DNA from: a virus
Strand: one strand, 5' to 3'
Virus record (IMG/VR): IMGVR_UViG_3300020408_000039
Location: 1 to 23,635 of that record
DNA length: 23,635 bases
The position numbers and the translations under genes are program-made. Of the stretch, positions 532-22,041 are shown piece by piece. The notes under the pieces were generated by a model that had not been told where the DNA came from, ran no database searches, and saw only the letters and a program-made list of their open reading frames with translations. Within the stretch, counting starts at the first letter, position 1. Every line of letters begins with the position of its first letter.

Positions 532-3500
532 ATGTCAGGTGACAACGGTTGGTTTCAACAAAACTGTGACCCCTCGGACGATCAGTCTCAGGGGCAACAG
601 GAGGTGCCTTCTGGTGGCGGTGGTTCCAATGTAAAAGGTGATGGTACTCCTGCTGATGCAACAGTAAATCAAATAATAGAAAACTTAGTAGGTCAGTGTT
701 ACCCTTCACAACAGACACAGACCATACCTAACTTTGGTGAACCAGATACAGGTCTTGAGAATCTACCACCAATAGAATATGATATTGGATATATTGTAGA
801 TCATTTAAACGGTCTTGGACTAGAAGATATAGGTGTACCAAGTAAAATTAGAATAGAATTAGAGGACCCAAGAGATCCTTCAGCAGGTAAAGAATGTCAG
901 AATGATGAGTATGATACACAATCAGATGTAGATTGTAATCCAGATATAGGACAGGTTCCTCAATGTATGTTAGATCACATCGAGTGTATGTTAAAACCAT
1001 ATGCAGGTGGTGACTGGAAACCTCCTATGCCAGACTGTGAAAACTTTATTACTAGAGAGTTCAATAGAAAAACAAATAGAATATGTGTAAAGAACTGTGT
1101 TCCAGAACGTAGAGCAGTGTATGAACACGTGTCACCTACAAACCATCACTATAGTTTATCTGAGACACCTCCTGACAGTTCATATACATCTTCAAGTATT
1201 ATATTCTGGGGTCACAATAAACAAGAACCTAGATCATCAGAGTTGTTTGTCTCATATAGTGCTAGTCAGACAGATACTATGTTAACTATGAACCCAGAAG
1301 GAGAGAAGTCTTCTATGGATGCTTATGGTATGGGATCTAGAACTGATGTTATTTCTTACATTTTCCGTGAGAAAATTGATGGGATTAGTTCCCTAGGTGA
1401 TGGAGAAAAACTATCAACTTTATACAGATACTGGAATCCTACAACAGGTGATCATAGATATTCTTTGACACCTCTCGGTGGAGAGTTAATAGAACCTGTT
1501 TTAACAGGAGGATTTTATAGGATCGGAGGTAGAGTTGACGCTGATATATTAATTGAGTTTAATTGTCAACGTGGTAGTGCAGCATATAAAAATGTTTTTG
1601 GATATTATATTACTGATGCAAATGATAACCCTGCATATGGTCAAGTCATTCTTCCTAATGCTACAGACGCTTCTGGGTATCACTCACACGTAGTTTCAAA
1701 GACAGTTCTAAATCAATACGCTCCTTGTAAAATAGGATTTGTCTTAGTTCCTAATGGTTTTGATGCAGGTCAGAATAATGGAACTATAAATCAGGGTGAT
1801 CTTCTTACCTTTAGTCAGACAACAAACAATGGTGCTTGGAGAACGAATCTAAATTCACAGCAACAAAACCTCAGTATGTTTAGTGAGAGAAGACTAAACT
1901 GGAAGCAGAAGAATTTTACAAGATGGACATCACGTTGGTGGCAGTGGTGGGAAGACTTACTGGATGGTGATGAGGACTATAACGATGTTAAAATATCATA
2001 TCGTATGAGTTATAATGGATCTCCTTGGTTCTATGAAGGCATCACAGGTTATGTTTTTGGACAGTTAGTTGAACCTGAGTACGAAGTATTGGAATCAATC
2101 AAATCTTGTGAGGACTTCTTGTTTGATCCTACAGGATTTAAAGGAGTCAATATGATGCGTTCGGGTTGTGGACAAGTTGTAGAAGGAGAAGTAATCTCAG
2201 GTGGATGTGGTGATTGTACTGGTGATTATCTAGTCAGAGACAATACAGCACAAACAATCACCTGCATACAAGATGCAACAGTAAGTCTAAGATCACACGG
2301 TGGTATGACAGGTGGTCTTGGTGAGTGTACAGTATTTAAGTATGAGTTGTATAAGAATGGTGTAAAAATATTTGAGGATGAAGCACACATAGATGAGTGG
2401 ACAAAAATTGGTACACCATTACATACATTCGACATCGTGAGAGGTGATGATATATCATTTAGAGTTGACAGTATAGTAAGTGGTCACTTTGCTGCATCAG
2501 TATCACCACACTTTGCCATACACAATGAAGGTACAAAACAGATTGTCAATATATGGGAAGTCAACTTAACTACAGTGTCACATAACGTTACCAATCAGGA
2601 CTTCCAGTGTGGTATGCCTGGATCATTCTCTTTATATGATCTAAATGATTCTAGTAACGTGGTGTCTGCGTGGTCAAGTGGTGGTGGATTTACTAATAAC
2701 TGGTTGACAACAAGTCCACGTCCTATGTTTGTAAATCAAACTAGAACTCTTGATGATAGTACAGGATATATTGTGAGGTCTATAGGTGATGGTGGTTTAT
2801 CACTTAATATTAGATATGAATCAGTAACTGATGGTATGAGATACCGTGTAGAAGGTATTATTGATGAGGGTAAGGGTGGATATAATACAGGAGAACTGTA
2901 TAAGTTTTTTGTAGGAAAAGATAAAGTATTAGGTACAATGTTTAGACAAGGTATTCGTATTGATACTCTTGATACATCTGCTTGCACATCAGGTGGTGCT
3001 GTAAATCAATTATCATTCGGAACTTTGAATGAGGACATAGAGGTAGGTGCCTATGGTGTTCCTAGTCCTGTGATTATGATTCAATCAGGTTCACCAACAG
3101 CAAACTATTTTGACAGTCAAGTTAGTGATCTAGTAGAGAAACTATTTACTGTGAGTGTAGAAGATACATCTAACTCAGTTCTTATGATGTATAGAGAACC
3201 TGCTACTCTCATACAATATTGGCAGAGAAAAAATGCAGCAGGAGAACCAGTTTATTTTTATCACGATTTTGATTTAGGTAAAACTAATGGACTCAAGTTA
3301 AGAATGAGAGGTGAGTTGATATTTAAGGCAACAGATACTCAAACAGCACCAGAGACTAAGAAAGGATACCAGTTTAGGTGGACAGTAGATTCTATTCTCA
3401 ATGCAGGTCAGGGATATGTAGACGGTATGGAGTTTACGTGGGAGTATCCTACAAGAAACGAAGATGTTGTAAACAATGAGGGTGTAGAAATTGTTACACC

Positions 3501-12661: not shown

Positions 12662-12907
12662 ATGAAACTAATCGACGGATGCTACTCTCTCAAACTAGAA
12701 TGTGCATTGAGAGGGTTGGGATTTGTCGATGTTAATCAATGGAAAGTAATAGCAAGAGCAGGTATATTTTTTGTTGAACCAATAGGAATCCCAGAGGACC
12801 CTGATGCGGATCTTCTGGGATTTTTAGTGACTATTCCTTATGCTTCGTGGAAGAGACCAAGATTAAAAGATACTGCTAAAAAAGCGTTGGACTACTGTTT
12901 GGATTAG
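12662..12907 (+). CDS. Protein of 81 aa, unknown, with embedded terminator
   Basis: ATG 12662 follows the previous stop without a gap. The sequence looks like a small folded protein (YSLKLECALRGLGFVDVNQW, then two beta-like segments and a C-terminal helix KDTAKKALDYCLD) and has no recognised family. Codons about 42-55 form a strong terminator hairpin with a U5 tail, so most full-length message would need read-through, or the terminator may end part of the upstream unit. It is the last plus-strand gene before the minus-strand baseplate genes, and its stop overlaps the gp53 stop by three bases. Confidence 0.6.
   Translation: MKLIDGCYSLKLECALRGLGFVDVNQWKVIARAGIFFVEPIGIPEDPDADLLGFLVTIPYASWKRPRLKDTAKKALDYCLD
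12787..12825 (+). terminator. Strong intrinsic terminator inside the 81-aa ORF
   Basis: AATCCCAGA (12787-12795) pairs perfectly with TCTGGGATT (12814-12822); three further pairs (GGA with TCT, one wobble) extend the stem inward around a 12-nt loop. The 3' arm runs into TTTTT (12821-12825). It would stop plus-strand transcription before it collides with gp53/gp48 transcription from the other strand. Confidence 0.75.
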
Positions 12908-13923
12908 TACCCTCCTCCGTAGTATCCACCCCCACTTGATCCCGAAGACCCGCTAGAACTAGAAGAACCACTAGAAGAACTAGAACTACTTGATCCACTT
13001 GAGGATGAAGAACTGCTTGACGAACTTGACGAACTTGATGAACTGCTCGACGAGGAACTTGTATCAGTAGATGATGTACTACTATAAGTGGTAGAGGAAG
13101 AGGCATTTGAATCTGTTGTACTTAATGTGACACCAGTTGATGTCGCAGTGCTTGCTGTTTCTGTTGTTGATGCTGATCCACCACCTGATGCTATTAATCC
13201 AGTAGAAGAACCACCACCTGATGCAGAACCTGTGGAAGCAGTGCTTTGTCTAGGTCTATTGTATCTAGGTAATCCTATGAATTCTTCTGCGAGTGATCCT
13301 TCAGTCTTCTTGTTGCCATCCATATCTACTTCAGCATTAGGTAGATACCTTGCTAATCTTCTAAACTCTGAGATAAAGTCTGTTAGATATTGTGGTTTTA
13401 AAATGTAAATATTTCTTTTAGTATCATTTATTTTGGACTCGTAGTCGTAGTAGGATATTGCATTTCTAGACGCGGATTTTGTAAGGACGGTGCCATCGGG
13501 TTTCGTATATTGGAAAGACTCCGAAACAGTAATCCCACTAGGAAGTAGGACGAGATCAAGACTAGGACTCTTATACTCCTTTGTTTCATAGTGACTAACT
13601 CCTTCTACTGAACCATATTTATCTCGAACATAACCCAACAAATCCTCACGATTCATTGGCCAGTCCTCATTAACATTTATAATATTATTTACTAAGAGAA
13701 GAACCCAATCAAGTCCTGCATCTTTATAAAGATTAAATGCAACTTGATCTGGTCTCTCTCCATCTTGTATTTCATATTGTATAAAACCAAGTAATGAACC
13801 TTGCAAGTCATCTCTTACTTTAATACGTCTAAAAATGTTTACTGCTAGTTCATATGGTTGAGTACCATCAATTCTAGTTTTGTTTCTTACGTAAACTTTA
13901 GGTAGGAATTTAAAATATGCCAT
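12904..13923 (-). CDS. 53: Baseplate wedge protein gp53 with a Ser/Gly-rich extension
   Basis: Residues 1-226 match T4-type gp53: the start MAYFKFLPKVYVRNKTRIDG, then NIFRRIKVRDDLQGSLLGF, DGERPDQVAFNLYKDAGLDW and WPMNREDLLGYVRDKYGS, a LysM-like wedge protein that joins wedges around the hub. T4 gp53 is 196 aa. Here residues about 227-339 are an added Ser/Thr/Gly tail with a run of 21 Ser and a GGGYYGGGY end. The tail is probably disordered and may lie on the baseplate surface or act as a linker. The gene is transcribed leftward after gp48, with which it shares one base, and converges on the 81-aa gene. Confidence 0.9.
   Translation of the reverse strand: MAYFKFLPKVYVRNKTRIDGTQPYELAVNIFRRIKVRDDLQGSLLGFIQYEIQDGERPDQVAFNLYKDAGLDWVLLLVNNIINVNEDWPMNREDLLGYVRDKYGSVEGVSHYETKEYKSPSLDLVLLPSGITVSESFQYTKPDGTVLTKSASRNAISYYDYESKINDTKRNIYILKPQYLTDFISEFRRLARYLPNAEVDMDGNKKTEGSLAEEFIGLPRYNRPRQSTASTGSASGGGSSTGLIASGGGSASTTETASTATSTGVTLSTTDSNASSSTTYSSTSSTDTSSSSSSSSSSSSSSSSSSSSSGSSSSSSSSGSSSSSGSSGSSGGGYYGGGY
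12907..13245 (-). repeat. Low-complexity Ser/Thr/Gly-coding tract in gp53
   Basis: This tract encodes the last 113 residues of gp53. The longest run, 21 Ser codons at 12997-13059, uses all six serine codons (AGT 6, TCA 6, TCG 4, TCC 2, AGC 2, TCT 1). The tract is therefore repetitive in protein but only loosely repetitive in DNA. Confidence 0.85.
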
Positions 13924-16643: not shown

Positions 16644-17354
16644 ATGCCAATGCCATTACCGACCCTCGTGGTCCCTGAGTATGAATGTACCTTACCATTC
16701 GGTCAAAAGGTAACATATCGTCCATTCCTAGTTCGTGAAGAGAAATTGCTTTATATGGCAATGGAATCTCAAGATCAAAAGGAAATGATCAAGGCAGTAA
16801 AAGAGATTATTAAAAATTGTACAAGTGTAAAGAAGATAGAATCACTTGCTACATTTGATATTGAATATTTGTTCTTACGTATTCGTGCTAAGTCAGTAGG
16901 TGAAGTCAGTGAGTTTAAAGTGACTGCTCCTGATGATAATGAAACACAAGTTGATGTTGAAGTCAATCTTGAGGAAGTTGAGGTTGTTGTTCCTGATAAC
17001 CATACAAATAAAATAAAAATTACTGATGATGTCACACTTGTAATGAAGTATCCTTCTATCGATACTTTTGTAAAGAATAATTTAGCAGATGAACCTAAAC
17101 TTGATGACATTTTCCAACTTGCAGCAGATTGTGTTGACAAAATTGCCAACGGTGATGAAGTAGAAAACGCAAAAGCATACAAGAAGGCAGAACTCATAAG
17201 TTTCTTTGAAGGTATGAATAATATGCAGTTTCAGAAAGTACAATCTTTCTTTGAGACAATGCCTAAAGTATCTCACACTATTGAAATTTTCAATCCTAAG
17301 ACTGAGAAAAAGAGTGAGATGTTATTAGAGGGGATGGCAAGTTTTTTCGCATAG
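16644..17354 (+). CDS. 26: Baseplate hub / tail-assembly chaperone gp26 (short, non-shifted product)
   Basis: This 236-aa protein fits the T4 gp26 baseplate family (T4: 208 aa): VPEYECTLPFGQKVTYRPFL, VREEKLLYMAMES and IKNCTS in the first 70 residues, then a central acidic beta region and a C-terminal helix ending in LEGMASFFA. The N-terminal part is the same type as proteins that act as tail-assembly chaperones in other phages. The gene ends at TTTTTTC GCA TAG, and the -1 frame stays open for 66 more codons, so part of the ribosomes probably make a 301-aa form. It lies directly before two tape-measure-like genes. The T4-based name gp26 and the chaperone role are both inferred. Confidence 0.85.
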   Translation: MPMPLPTLVVPEYECTLPFGQKVTYRPFLVREEKLLYMAMESQDQKEMIKAVKEIIKNCTSVKKIESLATFDIEYLFLRIRAKSVGEVSEFKVTAPDDNETQVDVEVNLEEVEVVVPDNHTNKIKITDDVTLVMKYPSIDTFVKNNLADEPKLDDIFQLAADCVDKIANGDEVENAKAYKKAELISFFEGMNNMQFQKVQSFFETMPKVSHTIEIFNPKTEKKSEMLLEGMASFFA

Positions 17355-17361
17355 CCCTCTC
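17328..17361 (+). promoter_or_regulatory. Predicted -1 programmed ribosomal frameshift site
   Basis: The slippery heptamer T_TTT_TTC (17342-17348) is in the correct phase of gp26 (AGT TTT TTC). An SD-like GAGGGG (17328-17333) lies 8-10 nt upstream, the place where internal SDs stimulate -1 shifts. Six bases downstream, CCCTCTC (17355-17361) is perfectly complementary to GAGAGGG at 17456-17462 and could form a long-range stem. P2 uses the related heptamer T_TTT_TTG for its E/E' frameshift. Confidence 0.7.
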
Positions 17362-17548
17362 ACACGATACATTGATGAATCTATATGAAGTGAACTTTGC
17401 ATTGATGCAGCATCACAAGTATAGTCTGACTGAATTAGAACAAATGATGCCTTGGGAGAGGGATGTCTATGTAAATATGCTCATACGACATCTTCGTGAA
17501 GAAGAAGCACGTCAGAAACAAGCGAACGCACAACACCAATCATTGTAA
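17348..17548 (+). CDS. Frameshift extension of gp26 (tail-assembly chaperone C-terminal part); 57-aa ORF if started at ATG 17375
   Basis: After a -1 shift at 17342-17348 the frame reads CGC ATA GCC CTC and so on without a stop to TAA 17546-17548, adding 66 residues to gp26 residue 235. From ATG 17375 the same frame could also make 57 aa alone, although no Shine-Dalgarno precedes that ATG. The sequence (HHKYSLTELEQMMPWERDVY, then a charged helix MLIRHLREEEARQKQ) resembles the short T-type extensions of tail-chaperone fusions, which carry a Leu-Pro/Met-Pro-Trp segment. Such extensions recruit the tape measure protein for chaperone binding. The next gene starts at GTG 17549, one base after the stop. 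Confidence 0.7.
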   Translation, partial: RIALSHDTLMNLYEVNFALMQHHKYSLTELEQMMPWERDVYVNMLIRHLREEEARQKQANAQHQSL

Positions 17549-19849
17549 GTGGCAAAAACAGCATCACCATTAAAGATTAAAAAGTTTCTTGCACCCACCC
17601 CAGGTGGACCGCAAGGAGATCCTGTTAAGACTCTAACTTTTGCTATCAACAGGATGGGTTTTGCTGTGGCAGATATTGGTCAGTTGATGGTTGATGACTT
17701 GGCAGCAGCACAGGGAAGTCTAATTAATGCAGAGAATGATCGTAAGAAACAGTTAGAAATAGATAGGAAGGCAGAAGAGCAGTACGAAAAAGATCTAGAC
17801 AAAAAAGACATCGAAGATGGTGCTAAACAAGGAATCAAAAAGGCACCTAAGAAAATTGGGTGGATAGAAGCACTTTTAAAACCCCTAAAGTGGTTAGCAA
17901 AAGCATTTCTTGGTTGGGGTGTCTTAACTTTCTTACAACAACCTGGAAAAAGAAATGATTTAAGAATAGGATTAGCGGTCATAGGTGGGTGGTTCAAAAC
18001 TCTCTACAAAGTAACCACAGGAAGCATAGGACTAATACTTGATGGACTTGGAACAAAGAGTCCACTTATGGCAGTTTTAAAAATTGTCAGTGGTATTGGA
18101 GGATTATTTTTAGCAACTAGAATATTACGACCTTGGAAATTAATTGGTGATTATAAAAGATTAGAGAAATATTATAAAGCGTTCAAATATCGTAAACCTG
18201 GATCTAAATTTGCAGAAGGTAGGAGAATAGTAAAACAGAGACAATTAAATAAACAATTACGTGCCAGAAAACTCCTTCGTATGAAACGTCTGGCAAAAGT
18301 CAGGAGTGGTAGATTTTTACAAAGAGGAGGTAGGTTCCTAAAAGGTCCTGGTGTTAGTAAATTTATGAAAGTGGGTGGTAAGTTCCTCAAAGGTGGAGGA
18401 ATGTCAGTATTAGCAGGTGCATTCTCATTTGGAAACAGATTAGCATCTGGTAAGTCAATGCAAAACGCAGTTGGAGGTGGTGCAGGTGCTGTTATTGGTG
18501 GTTTGGCATTGTCAGCACTACTTACACCTATTCTTGGTCCATTTGGTCCTATTGTTGGTCAACTTGTAGGATCATTCCTTGGAGACAAGATAGGTGCCTT
18601 CGTAGGTGATGCTATGACACCTCTTTTCAAACCTATAAAAAGAGCATTTGGTATGTACTTTAAGATCTTCAAGGCATATTATAGTGGAATAGCAGAAGCG
18701 TTTGCTGACCTATGGAATGATGGGATAGCACCACTTTTCGCCAGAATGCAAGAAATATTTAAACCCCTTATAGATGCAGGAATACAAAGGATTACTGATA
18801 CGTTTAATAGTCCTTGGGCACAAGAAGCAATGTATAATTTAGTTAGATTAGTCAATTCTGGTAAAAGATTAATGAATAAAACCTTAAATGCGTTAAACAT
18901 AGGTACAGATGAGCAGAAAATAACTAGAGAAGTAGAAAATAAACAGTTAGATATAGCAGACAGTCTAGCAAAAATAAAAATGCTAGAAAAAATTCAAGAA
19001 GAGAAAGGTGAAGACTATAAAGGACCTTGGTTTAACAAATGGAGATTTTCTGTCTCAGAACGTATTGAGAAAGAAAAGGAATATCTAGCAAAATTACAAT
19101 CAAAAGAAAGTGAACTAATAGCAGAGCAAACAGCACAAAGAAATGAAGAGATAACAGGAGCACTTCCTGCTGTATTCCCACTAAAAGATGGATTCTTAGA
19201 TAAAAGTGCAGGAACATATACAGCGGGAGGATTAAAAGAAGGTATGGTCATAAGACCTAGAAATCCAGAAAGTTTTCCTATAGATGTTTTTGCTATAAAA
19301 GCAGGTAAGATACGTCAGTATAATTATAAACCAAAAGGATATATGAAAGCAGGGATGATTATTGAGGGTGATGGTGAAAATCCAGATATTAACTACAGAA
19401 ATGTGAACCCTACTGTTCCTCATAAAACAAGGGTAAAACCTGGTGATAAAATAGGTGAGTTAATAGATGCTAGAAAACATATTAACTATGCTAATCCCCT
19501 TTTAGGTATGATGGATTCGTCAATGACATTTCTTGTAGCACAGGCATATAAAAACCATAAAAAAGAACCTAAAGGAAAATATAATAAGAACATAATTCCA
19601 TTGGATAGTCTATATCCTGAGATATTCTCTTCACAAGAGGAAAACGACATTGTAAGTAACACAGTTAACCCCGAAGAAATAAATAACAGTGATACCGTCA
19701 ACGCAAATGATCTGGTTAATGAAAAAGAGTATGTAGTTGATGATAACTCAGGTGAAATAACTATTGTTCAACCAGTAAATCAACCTGTCGTTATCACAGG
19801 TAATGAAACGATTGTGGCATACACACAAAATGACGCGACAGTTTACTAA
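17549..19849 (+). CDS. Tape-measure-like tail protein 1, 766 aa, GTG start
   Basis: The gene starts at GTG right after the frameshift ORF stop. Features in order: a short N-terminal motif (KKFLAPTPGG), a heptad-rich coiled coil (about residues 55-100, with QLEIDRKAEEQ), hydrophobic segments near 110-160, a basic stretch (about 205-265), and a Gly-rich hydrophobic hairpin (about 290-345, AGAVIGGLALSALLTPILGP). Another coiled coil follows. Residues about 575-650 (VFAIKAGKIRQYNYKPKGYM, then VKPGDKIGELID) look like an M23 peptidase fold without its zinc-binding His residues. Large size, hydrophobic segments and position after the chaperone suggest a tape measure or internal hub protein (gp29-like). 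It shares the N-terminal pattern with the next gene. Confidence 0.6.
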   Translation: MAKTASPLKIKKFLAPTPGGPQGDPVKTLTFAINRMGFAVADIGQLMVDDLAAAQGSLINAENDRKKQLEIDRKAEEQYEKDLDKKDIEDGAKQGIKKAPKKIGWIEALLKPLKWLAKAFLGWGVLTFLQQPGKRNDLRIGLAVIGGWFKTLYKVTTGSIGLILDGLGTKSPLMAVLKIVSGIGGLFLATRILRPWKLIGDYKRLEKYYKAFKYRKPGSKFAEGRRIVKQRQLNKQLRARKLLRMKRLAKVRSGRFLQRGGRFLKGPGVSKFMKVGGKFLKGGGMSVLAGAFSFGNRLASGKSMQNAVGGGAGAVIGGLALSALLTPILGPFGPIVGQLVGSFLGDKIGAFVGDAMTPLFKPIKRAFGMYFKIFKAYYSGIAEAFADLWNDGIAPLFARMQEIFKPLIDAGIQRITDTFNSPWAQEAMYNLVRLVNSGKRLMNKTLNALNIGTDEQKITREVENKQLDIADSLAKIKMLEKIQEEKGEDYKGPWFNKWRFSVSERIEKEKEYLAKLQSKESELIAEQTAQRNEEITGALPAVFPLKDGFLDKSAGTYTAGGLKEGMVIRPRNPESFPIDVFAIKAGKIRQYNYKPKGYMKAGMIIEGDGENPDINYRNVNPTVPHKTRVKPGDKIGELIDARKHINYANPLLGMMDSSMTFLVAQAYKNHKKEPKGKYNKNIIPLDSLYPEIFSSQEENDIVSNTVNPEEINNSDTVNANDLVNEKEYVVDDNSGEITIVQPVNQPVVITGNETIVAYTQNDATVY

Positions 19850-22041
19850 TGGCAGAAAAAAAGACTATACGATTTTATAAATTTATTGCACCACCAAAAG
19901 ATGAGGGTGCAAAAATTTCGATTGGCGGTAAACAAGTATCGGGGTCAAGTTTTTCCACAACCATTAAAGCAATTAATTCCCTAGGGATAACAGTTAATAG
20001 TATAGGTGTAGCAGTACAAGCAGCAAGAGCACAACAGACTGCTCAAATGCAAGAAATATCGAGAAGAAATCAACTTGAAATTGATAGAGCAAATGCTCGT
20101 AAGATGAAGAAAGGTAATAAAATGGGTATTGGTTTAGCAGTTGGTGCATTAATGGCAAAAGCAGCACCTACATTCTTCGGATGGTTAGGTAAGTTGTTTA
20201 CAGGTCTTATGACCTTTGCTGCTCTTAAATGGTTAGGTAATAAGGAGAATCAAGAAAAATTAACTCTTGCAATGAAACGAATAGGAGGATTTTTCAAGGC
20301 AGTATGGGGATTGATGTCTGGAATTGTAAGTTGGATAGGAAAGTCGTGGAATCAATTATTTGGTGAAGATAAGTCTTTCTTGGACAGAATTGAAGGTGCT
20401 ATGAAGTTGATAACAGCGGGAGTTGTTGCTGCATTAGGATTAAAAATATTGAAGAATCCTGCATTGATGGTGAAAGGATTTACCAGTATGCTAAGTCTGG
20501 TTGGTAAAGGTATTATGAACCTAGGTAAATTCCTAGGTGGTAATTTCTTGGGTCAAGCAGGGTTAGGTATAGCACAAGGGTTTATGGCATATAATGATAT
20601 AATGGAAGATGAGGGTATAGATGAAGAATATAGACAGTCAGCAGCAATAGGTGGATCGGTAGGAGCAACAACAGGTGCAATAGGTCTTGGAATGATAGGT
20701 AATCAAATAGCAGGTCCTATCGGTGGTTTAATTGGTAATGCTCTTGGTGGATTTTTAGGAAAAAATGTAGGTAAATTTATTGGTCCTATGGTAAAGAAAA
20801 TCATAGATCCGATAAAAAAATGGTTTGGTATGGTTGCAGATTTTACTAAAAAATTACTGAAACCAGTTGGTGATGCAGTCAAAGACTTTTTTATAGCGTA
20901 TGGTGATCTTATGAGTAGGATTCTTGATATGATAGAACCACATATGCCAAAGATATTAAAAGCAGCAGAGATAATAGGTAAATACGCATTTGGTCCTGCA
21001 ATTTTGCTACTAAACACTCTTACGAAAGTTTTATCGTGGGTAGCAGGAAGTGGAAATCAAGATGAAACAGAGGAAACCTCTAACACTTCTACATTTAACG
21101 GAACTCCTTCAAATATTAATGGAGACCCCTTTAAAGGAGAAGGTGGTTCTACATATCCATTAAAAGGTTCTAATTTCTTAGGTGATTTTGTTGCGTCAGG
21201 CAGCAAATATGATGATACAGGAGATGGTACTGATACTTCCTTAATTTATCAGACTGTTGAAGAGTTAATTCAAACATATGGTGAAGGTGCAGAGTTAGGT
21301 CGTTATAGCATAAAACTCTCTGATGCTTTGGCAGCACTGAAGAGTATGGGTAAAGACCCTAAAACTTTCAAATTCAGTCCCGCAGGTCAAGATACTATCT
21401 TCAAAGAACTGAAGAATATGGCGGGATACCAAGATTTCTTGGGTGAGAAAATAGATGCAAGTCAATTTGCTTTAAATTTATCAAAATTCTTTGATGAGAT
21501 ACCTAGTTCAGAAGGGTCCGTAAATAACCAAACTAGAAGTTGGAAAGACACACTTGCAATGCTTGAAAGTTTGAAAGGTGGTAGAAGTAAAGGTGGTATC
21601 ATAAGTGGACCGCAATCAGGTTATCCCGTAGGGTTCAATCAAACATCATTTATTAATAGATCTAACGGTGGATTTGTAGGTCACGGAACAGAGTTTGTAG
21701 TACCTATAGACACACCTGATACCCGTAAAGATCCTAATCTTACAACACAAAGATTATTACAAGCAGTTGGAATTATATCAAAAACAACTAATGCTTCTGG
21801 TATATTAAAGAATCTACTAGACGTTACAACCGCAGGTGAACAGGAATTAGATAAAATGATGCAAAAACAACAGGTTCAGACTATCGTATTAGATGCAATA
21901 GAAAAACCTGTAATAGAAAAAGATGGTGGAGAAGGACAGTTAGTTACCCTCCCAGGGGATGAAAATCCTGTTACACCATATATACAAAGTAGATTTGGTT
22001 ATCTAGCAGAATCAAACACATCACCAAGTAACTTCTTATAA
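19849..22041 (+). CDS. Tape-measure-like tail protein 2, 730 aa (tandem paralogue)
   Basis: The start overlaps the previous stop (TAATG). It shares with protein 1 the N-terminal plan: RFYKFIAPPK, TIKAINSLGITVNSIG, then the motif QLEIDR, also found in protein 1, and a Gly-rich membrane-like hairpin (about residues 265-315, GPIGGLIGNALGGFLGKNVG) followed by the same IKKWFG-type helix. Hydrophobic segments near 95-125 and 140-160 fit the membrane-spanning parts of tape measure proteins. The C-terminus carries GGIISGPQSGYPVGF and GGFVGHGTEFVVP, short Gly motifs I associate with phage tape measure tails. One of the two may set tail length and the other may be a hub or ejection protein; sequence alone cannot tell which. 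Confidence 0.6.
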   Translation: MAEKKTIRFYKFIAPPKDEGAKISIGGKQVSGSSFSTTIKAINSLGITVNSIGVAVQAARAQQTAQMQEISRRNQLEIDRANARKMKKGNKMGIGLAVGALMAKAAPTFFGWLGKLFTGLMTFAALKWLGNKENQEKLTLAMKRIGGFFKAVWGLMSGIVSWIGKSWNQLFGEDKSFLDRIEGAMKLITAGVVAALGLKILKNPALMVKGFTSMLSLVGKGIMNLGKFLGGNFLGQAGLGIAQGFMAYNDIMEDEGIDEEYRQSAAIGGSVGATTGAIGLGMIGNQIAGPIGGLIGNALGGFLGKNVGKFIGPMVKKIIDPIKKWFGMVADFTKKLLKPVGDAVKDFFIAYGDLMSRILDMIEPHMPKILKAAEIIGKYAFGPAILLLNTLTKVLSWVAGSGNQDETEETSNTSTFNGTPSNINGDPFKGEGGSTYPLKGSNFLGDFVASGSKYDDTGDGTDTSLIYQTVEELIQTYGEGAELGRYSIKLSDALAALKSMGKDPKTFKFSPAGQDTIFKELKNMAGYQDFLGEKIDASQFALNLSKFFDEIPSSEGSVNNQTRSWKDTLAMLESLKGGRSKGGIISGPQSGYPVGFNQTSFINRSNGGFVGHGTEFVVPIDTPDTRKDPNLTTQRLLQAVGIISKTTNASGILKNLLDVTTAGEQELDKMMQKQQVQTIVLDAIEKPVIEKDGGEGQLVTLPGDENPVTPYIQSRFGYLAESNTSPSNFL

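Follow-up and report, generated by a model that had tools for sequence, protein, structure and literature searches.

The T4-like cyanophages count among the commonest viruses of the ocean, and their gene 51 has been listed as a stub. The stretch of DNA analysed here, 23,635 nucleotides from the IMG/VR virus record IMGVR_UViG_3300020408_000039 and referred to below as the window, raises the question of what that stub is. Its gp26 gene ends in a run of T residues, and a short ORF lies open in the -1 frame just beyond. Is this ORF a small gene of its own, or is it the C-terminal part of a second, longer gp26 product made by -1 ribosomal frameshifting, in the manner of the phage lambda G/GT tail-assembly chaperone (TAC)?

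The gp26 junction and its conservation

The product of the upstream gene matches the Pfam family T4_baseplate (PF12322) with E=2e-66 and 224 bits, above the cut-off of 24.5, and also matches phrog_150 (E=9.4e-73). The 3' end of the gene reads AGT TTT TTC GCA TAG, and so contains the heptamer T_TTT_TTC in the gp26 phase (Table 1). The -1 frame matches phrog_634 (E=2.5e-29) and in addition covers positions 231-279 of phrog_150, a family whose 282 positions already span both frames; when joined to gp26, it gives a predicted fusion of 301 aa. A preliminary description of this locus had proposed the frameshift, and the coordinates that it gave for gp26, the heptamer, the -1 frame and an upstream GAGGGG all proved correct when the sequence was read again. 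Its statement that the downstream ORF has a start without a Shine-Dalgarno sequence also held in the window, and the relatives described below have no conserved start.

Table 1. Features of the gp26 region, in window coordinates
Feature	Position	Strand	Basis
Tail tube or tail-tube-initiator-like protein, 229 aa	15916..16605	+	phrog_45 tail tube, E=8.8e-35; Pfam Phage_TTP_2, 2.7e-5
gp26 homologue, 236 aa; putative short chaperone form, equivalent to lambda gpG	16644..17354	+	PF12322; phrog_150; AlphaFold
GAGGGG, Shine-Dalgarno-like; proposed stimulator	17328..17333	+	8 nt upstream of heptamer; GAG codon bias
Slippery heptamer T_TTT_TTC, in gp26 phase	17342..17348	+	T_TTT_TTN in 268/283 junctions
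-1 frame tail, 66 codons (17348-17545) and stop TAA (17546-17548); gp51 C-terminal domain, putative equivalent of lambda T	17348..17548	+	phrog_634; phrog_150; hhalign
Possible long-range stem, 17349-17361 with 17456-17462 and 17467-17472	17349..17472	+	Fold and covariation
gp26 zero-frame stop TAG	17352..17354	+	Single codon (GCA) between heptamer and stop
TTG (17372) and ATG (17375), the first codons, and near the head of the tail ORF the sole ones, that could serve as independent starts; both without Shine-Dalgarno	17372..17377	+	Sequence
Tape-measure candidate, 766 aa	17549..19849	+	Weak tape-measure PHROG matches, e.g. phrog_167, 6.7e-7; directly after tail
Paralogue of the 17549..19849 ORF, 730 aa	19849..22041	+	27% identity over 422 columns, E=3e-22

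Relatives of gp26 were gathered from viral contigs and phage records, and the junction was read in each, giving a set of 283 junctions with 108 representatives below 90% nucleotide identity. The first 77 relatives, which are about 50-100% identical, all have T_TTT_TTC, a stop one codon further on and a -1 frame that is open into the same tail. Across the full set an in-phase T_TTT_TTN heptamer is kept in 268 of the 283 junctions, and among 230 distinct sequences it is written TTTTTTC 213 times, TTTTTTT 16 times and TTTTTTG once. The distance from the heptamer to the stop is 0-3 sense codons in 105 of the 108 representatives and 8 codons in the remaining three. Complete -1 tails measure 55-73 codons in every case, whereas the +1 frame is shut within 35 codons.

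Conservation of the site extends to positions that the encoded peptide leaves free. The base preceding TTT TTC is a T in every representative, even though the codon to which it belongs may specify Ser, Asp, Asn, Ala, Thr or His. Given the amino acids, the invariant T has a log10 P of -25.7, or -46.5 when the first Phe codon is added; because this calculation treats related sequences as independent, the values serve as a guide and not as a probability. With the amino acid given, codon identity reaches 1.00 for the first Phe, against 0.54 expected, and 0.81 for the second; the codon before the Phe pair scores 0.61 against 0.32 expected, while most neighbouring codons stay near expectation. The maximum of synonymous conservation falls exactly on the heptamer. 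It is therefore very likely that the heptamer and the -1 frame are real and under selection, and the conservation tests suggested in the preliminary description came out in its favour.

Genes 26 and 51 in T4 and other phages

Phage T4 provides a natural control. T4 and its close relatives keep the Phe-Phe pair in gp26, but its usual spelling there is TTC TTT, preceded by GAG or GAA, and the heptamer is absent; the peptide by itself thus does not dictate a heptamer. The T4 genes 26 and 51 lie divergently on opposite strands, and both products carry PF12322, so the two are paralogous; gp51 consists of a gp26-like domain with a C-terminal extension. An hhalign comparison of a T4-type gp51 profile with the predicted 301-aa fusion gave a probability of 99.7% over 242 columns running across the junction, at 16% identity, a match that bears on the sequence of the predicted fusion rather than on its production. 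The would-be frameshift product of the window phage is thus homologous, over nearly its full length, to a protein for which T4 has a separate whole gene.

In the tree of the domain shared by gp26 and gp51, the gp26s of T4 type form one clade and the gp51s of T4 type a second, and carriage of the heptamer is the widespread condition. We infer a single gp26/gp51 duplication in the T4 lineage, from a sequence tree whose root is not fixed. A broader proposal, possible but on balance doubtful, is that frameshifting is the ancestral and still dominant TAC route in T4-like phages, new for cyanophages, with stimulators swapped between lineages and with the two-gene state of T4 as a derived duplication.

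Reading gp26 and the tail as one frameshifted gene would also account for two older puzzles of annotation. Cyanophage gp51 was noted to reach about 20% of the length that gp51 has elsewhere, marine vibriophage gp51 was likewise shortened, and gp51 was listed as missing in phage Aeh1 (Sullivan et al. 2010, PMC3037559). The cyanophage protein would appear truncated because the missing part comes from gp26 via the frameshift. In Aeh1 the heptamer is present, followed by an open tail that belongs to the same family and lies in the gap between annotated genes after gp26; its gp51 would appear missing because the tail is present but unannotated, and joined to gp26 by the frameshift. The gp51 tail is likewise unannotated after gp26 in S-WAM1 and ACG-2014d.

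The main alternative sees in the downstream ORF a small, independent gene 51 that is translated through reinitiation or from its own start; the heptamer would then be incidental. Public annotations do list gp51 as a gene of its own, and in none of those examined are the gp26 and tail frames joined in one product. Moreover, about half of the representatives have an ATG within the first four tail codons, and reinitiation may add free tail in these many relatives. However, 44 of the 108 representatives have no ATG, GTG or TTG within the first 8 tail codons, yet the stretch is conserved, and tail conservation begins at the slip site, ahead of any start codon. The heptamer is also conserved at the nucleotide level, and T4 has one fused protein as the counterpart. 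We consider a separate gene 51 very improbable on this evidence.

The junctions that lack the heptamer bear on the same question. Outside the T4 clade there are four of these, in phages IME-SM1, BX-1, D506 and Cygsa01. Stenotrophomonas phage IME-SM1 (NC_054952, near 3230) has a run of five T residues, one base shorter than in its sister Ps15, and its annotated gp26 continues in another frame as a result. Since Ps15 has the canonical GAT TTT TTC GGC TGA (within 3180-3260), the shortened run is likely a homopolymer error or a recent mutation, and IME-SM1 was rejected as a firm exception. The other three, BX-1 and D506 from Vibrio and Cygsa01 from Pseudomonas, group in a single clade of the gp26 tree and have TAATG at the junction, where the gp26 stop overlaps an ATG of the tail. 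This clade has lost the heptamer, which counts against a frameshifted gp26 and speaks for a separate gene 51 in these distant phages; their long form may arise through translational coupling or through a slip of another kind.

Possible stimulators and the mode of slippage

The GAGGGG upstream of the heptamer, singled out in the preliminary description as a possible stimulator, fits a codon bias in the relatives. Where the fifth codon before the first Phe specifies Glu, it is GAG in 69 of 81 representatives; the GAG share is 29% over gp26 as a whole and 22% at other sites that precede Gly. This bias keeps a Shine-Dalgarno-like string, GAGG, about 8-10 nt ahead of the heptamer. A Shine-Dalgarno-like element at such a spacing is of a kind known for E. 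coli dnaX.

RNA structure on the 3' side differs between lineages. The fold z-score, averaged over 106 relatives, has its minimum in the 60 nt directly 3' of the heptamer, at -1.28, compared with about -0.25 for the rest of gp26. Against controls in which the codons are randomised and the protein is unchanged, the overall value is -1.77, and the P-SSM2-type group reaches -3.8. The hairpin of this group has a two-sided change in 1 of its 11 pairs, and with covariation so thin the case for hairpins rests on the energy z-scores. The clade of the window itself has no local downstream hairpin by codon-randomised controls (mean z -0.2), and RNAalifold found no conserved local hairpin in it. A long-range stem is possible in this clade instead: the candidate in Table 1 has a fold z of -1.2 and two-sided changes at two pairs, and is 82% paired versus 80% in shuffles.

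These features also bear on whether it is the ribosome that would slip. Transcriptional slippage on the T6 run could make a fused mRNA with no ribosomal event, and a T6-T7 homopolymer does lie at the exact site. In most members, however, a C ends the run after six T residues, which makes it short for such slippage; known bacterial transcriptional slippage sites usually have longer runs. The fixed phase of T_TTT_TTN also argues against it, whereas the Shine-Dalgarno-like codon bias and the downstream hairpins fit stimulation of a ribosome. Slippage by the polymerase is accordingly a slim prospect, somewhat behind a separate gene 51. As for the notion that the T run is merely a conserved Phe-Phe in an AT-rich genome with a -1 frame open by chance, the Phe pair is indeed conserved even in T4 gp26, but the comparative data already exclude it for practical purposes, given T4-type phages that encode the pair without the heptamer, a third-base T that is invariant across six different preceding amino acids, and a tail that belongs to a PHROG family.

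The reading of gp26 and the -1 ORF as one gene, encoding a lambda G/GT-like TAC pair by -1 frameshifting, is one to which we assign a probability of roughly 0.9 on the sequence evidence, and use of the frameshift in vivo is, we infer, highly probable as well. Conservation and homology to T4 gp51 thus support the original suggestion of a frameshifted chaperone with predicted forms of 236 and 301 aa. Most ribosomes would terminate at the TAG and release the short form. A minority would slip by -1 on T_TTT_TTC, with both Phe tRNAs re-pairing on UUU, probably aided by GAGGGG and, in many relatives, also by a hairpin. The slipped ribosomes would then read the 66 further codons, and so add the gp51 C-terminal domain to make the long form. 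If lambda G/GT is a guide, the tape measure protein would be coated by many molecules of the short form and few of the long one, with the C-terminal domain recruiting tail tube or hub subunits.

The putative chaperone and its known counterparts

The position of gp26 may match that of known TAC genes. In lambda (G/GT) and P2 (E/E+E') the locus has the tail tube gene on one side and the tape measure gene on the other, a -1 frameshift occurs near the end of a short ORF, and the long form carries a small C-terminal domain. In the window, the gene for a tail-tube-like protein adjoins gp26 on its upstream side, and two large ORFs follow downstream. The preliminary description called both of them tape-measure-like, a label backed by weak profile matches. 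The lambda slippery site and its stimulators differ from those in the window, and no sequence similarity was found between the putative window chaperone and solved TACs. In lambda, which is the model system, the -1 shift yields about one gpGT for every 30 gpG, and the tape measure is the target of both proteins (Atkins et al. 2016, PMC5009743).

The fold was compared as well. AlphaFold modelled the short form of gp26 with a pLDDT of 89 when 50 relatives were supplied, whereas the model made without an alignment (pLDDT 35) was unusable. A profile search of gp26 against PDB sequences gave nothing relevant, and Foldseek found no significant match to the model in the PDB. The top probability among the matches listed, 0.54, was for the HK97 gp13 TAC (2ob9_B), a weak match with E=1.6, a TM score of 0.40 by target and an rmsd of 3.2 Å over 62 columns. 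The viral models that the gp26 model matches make up a broad family of T4-like gp26 proteins. The putative tail chaperone role is thus well supported by gene arrangement and literature, and weakly by fold.

The idea of frameshifting in this family is not new for T4-like phages, as later papers make clear. The TAC genes of these phages were identified by Vladimirov, Gautam and Davidson 2022 (Virology 566:9-15), according to PMC10885494 and PMC12846349. Citing that study, the first of these papers reports that some T4-like phages have one short and one fused gene in place of frameshifting, and the second that T4-like TAC genes have poly-T slippery sites. As far as these citing papers show, the genes concerned are 26 and 51, the same protein family as in the window, so that the predicted frameshifted TAC of the window is not a new kind. 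No description of a gp26 frameshift in cyanophages was found in the literature searched, in which the 2022 study is represented by the papers that cite it.

A further parallel comes from the Vandenendeviridae, a different virus family that is likened to the window by description. Its TAC locus, described for phage Adele, has a conserved GTTTTT at the end of TAC-N and an open -1 frame, and annotations usually give the tail as a hypothetical gene of its own (PMC12846349). Novelty here is accordingly moderate to low, and consists of the breadth of the survey, the upstream Shine-Dalgarno-like codon bias and the lineage-specific downstream hairpins; to the survey and the lineage-specific stimulators, the analysis adds the T4 control and an explanation for truncated and missing gp51.

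If gp26 and gp51 are indeed one frameshifted gene, the annotation of hundreds of genomes would be corrected and the gp51 reported missing in Aeh1 would be recovered. The same reading would support the view that the T4 hub genes 26 and 51 encode short and long tail chaperones. Frameshifting and gene duplication would then be a natural pair of solutions to the same need.

Two minor observations concern other genes in the window. The ORFs at 17549-19849 and 19849-22041 are tandem paralogues; as each is a tape-measure candidate, it may be asked whether tail length is set by one of them or by both. On the minus strand, positions 12904-13923 encode a gp53-like baseplate wedge protein whose C-terminal tail is long, of low complexity and rich in Ser and Gly.
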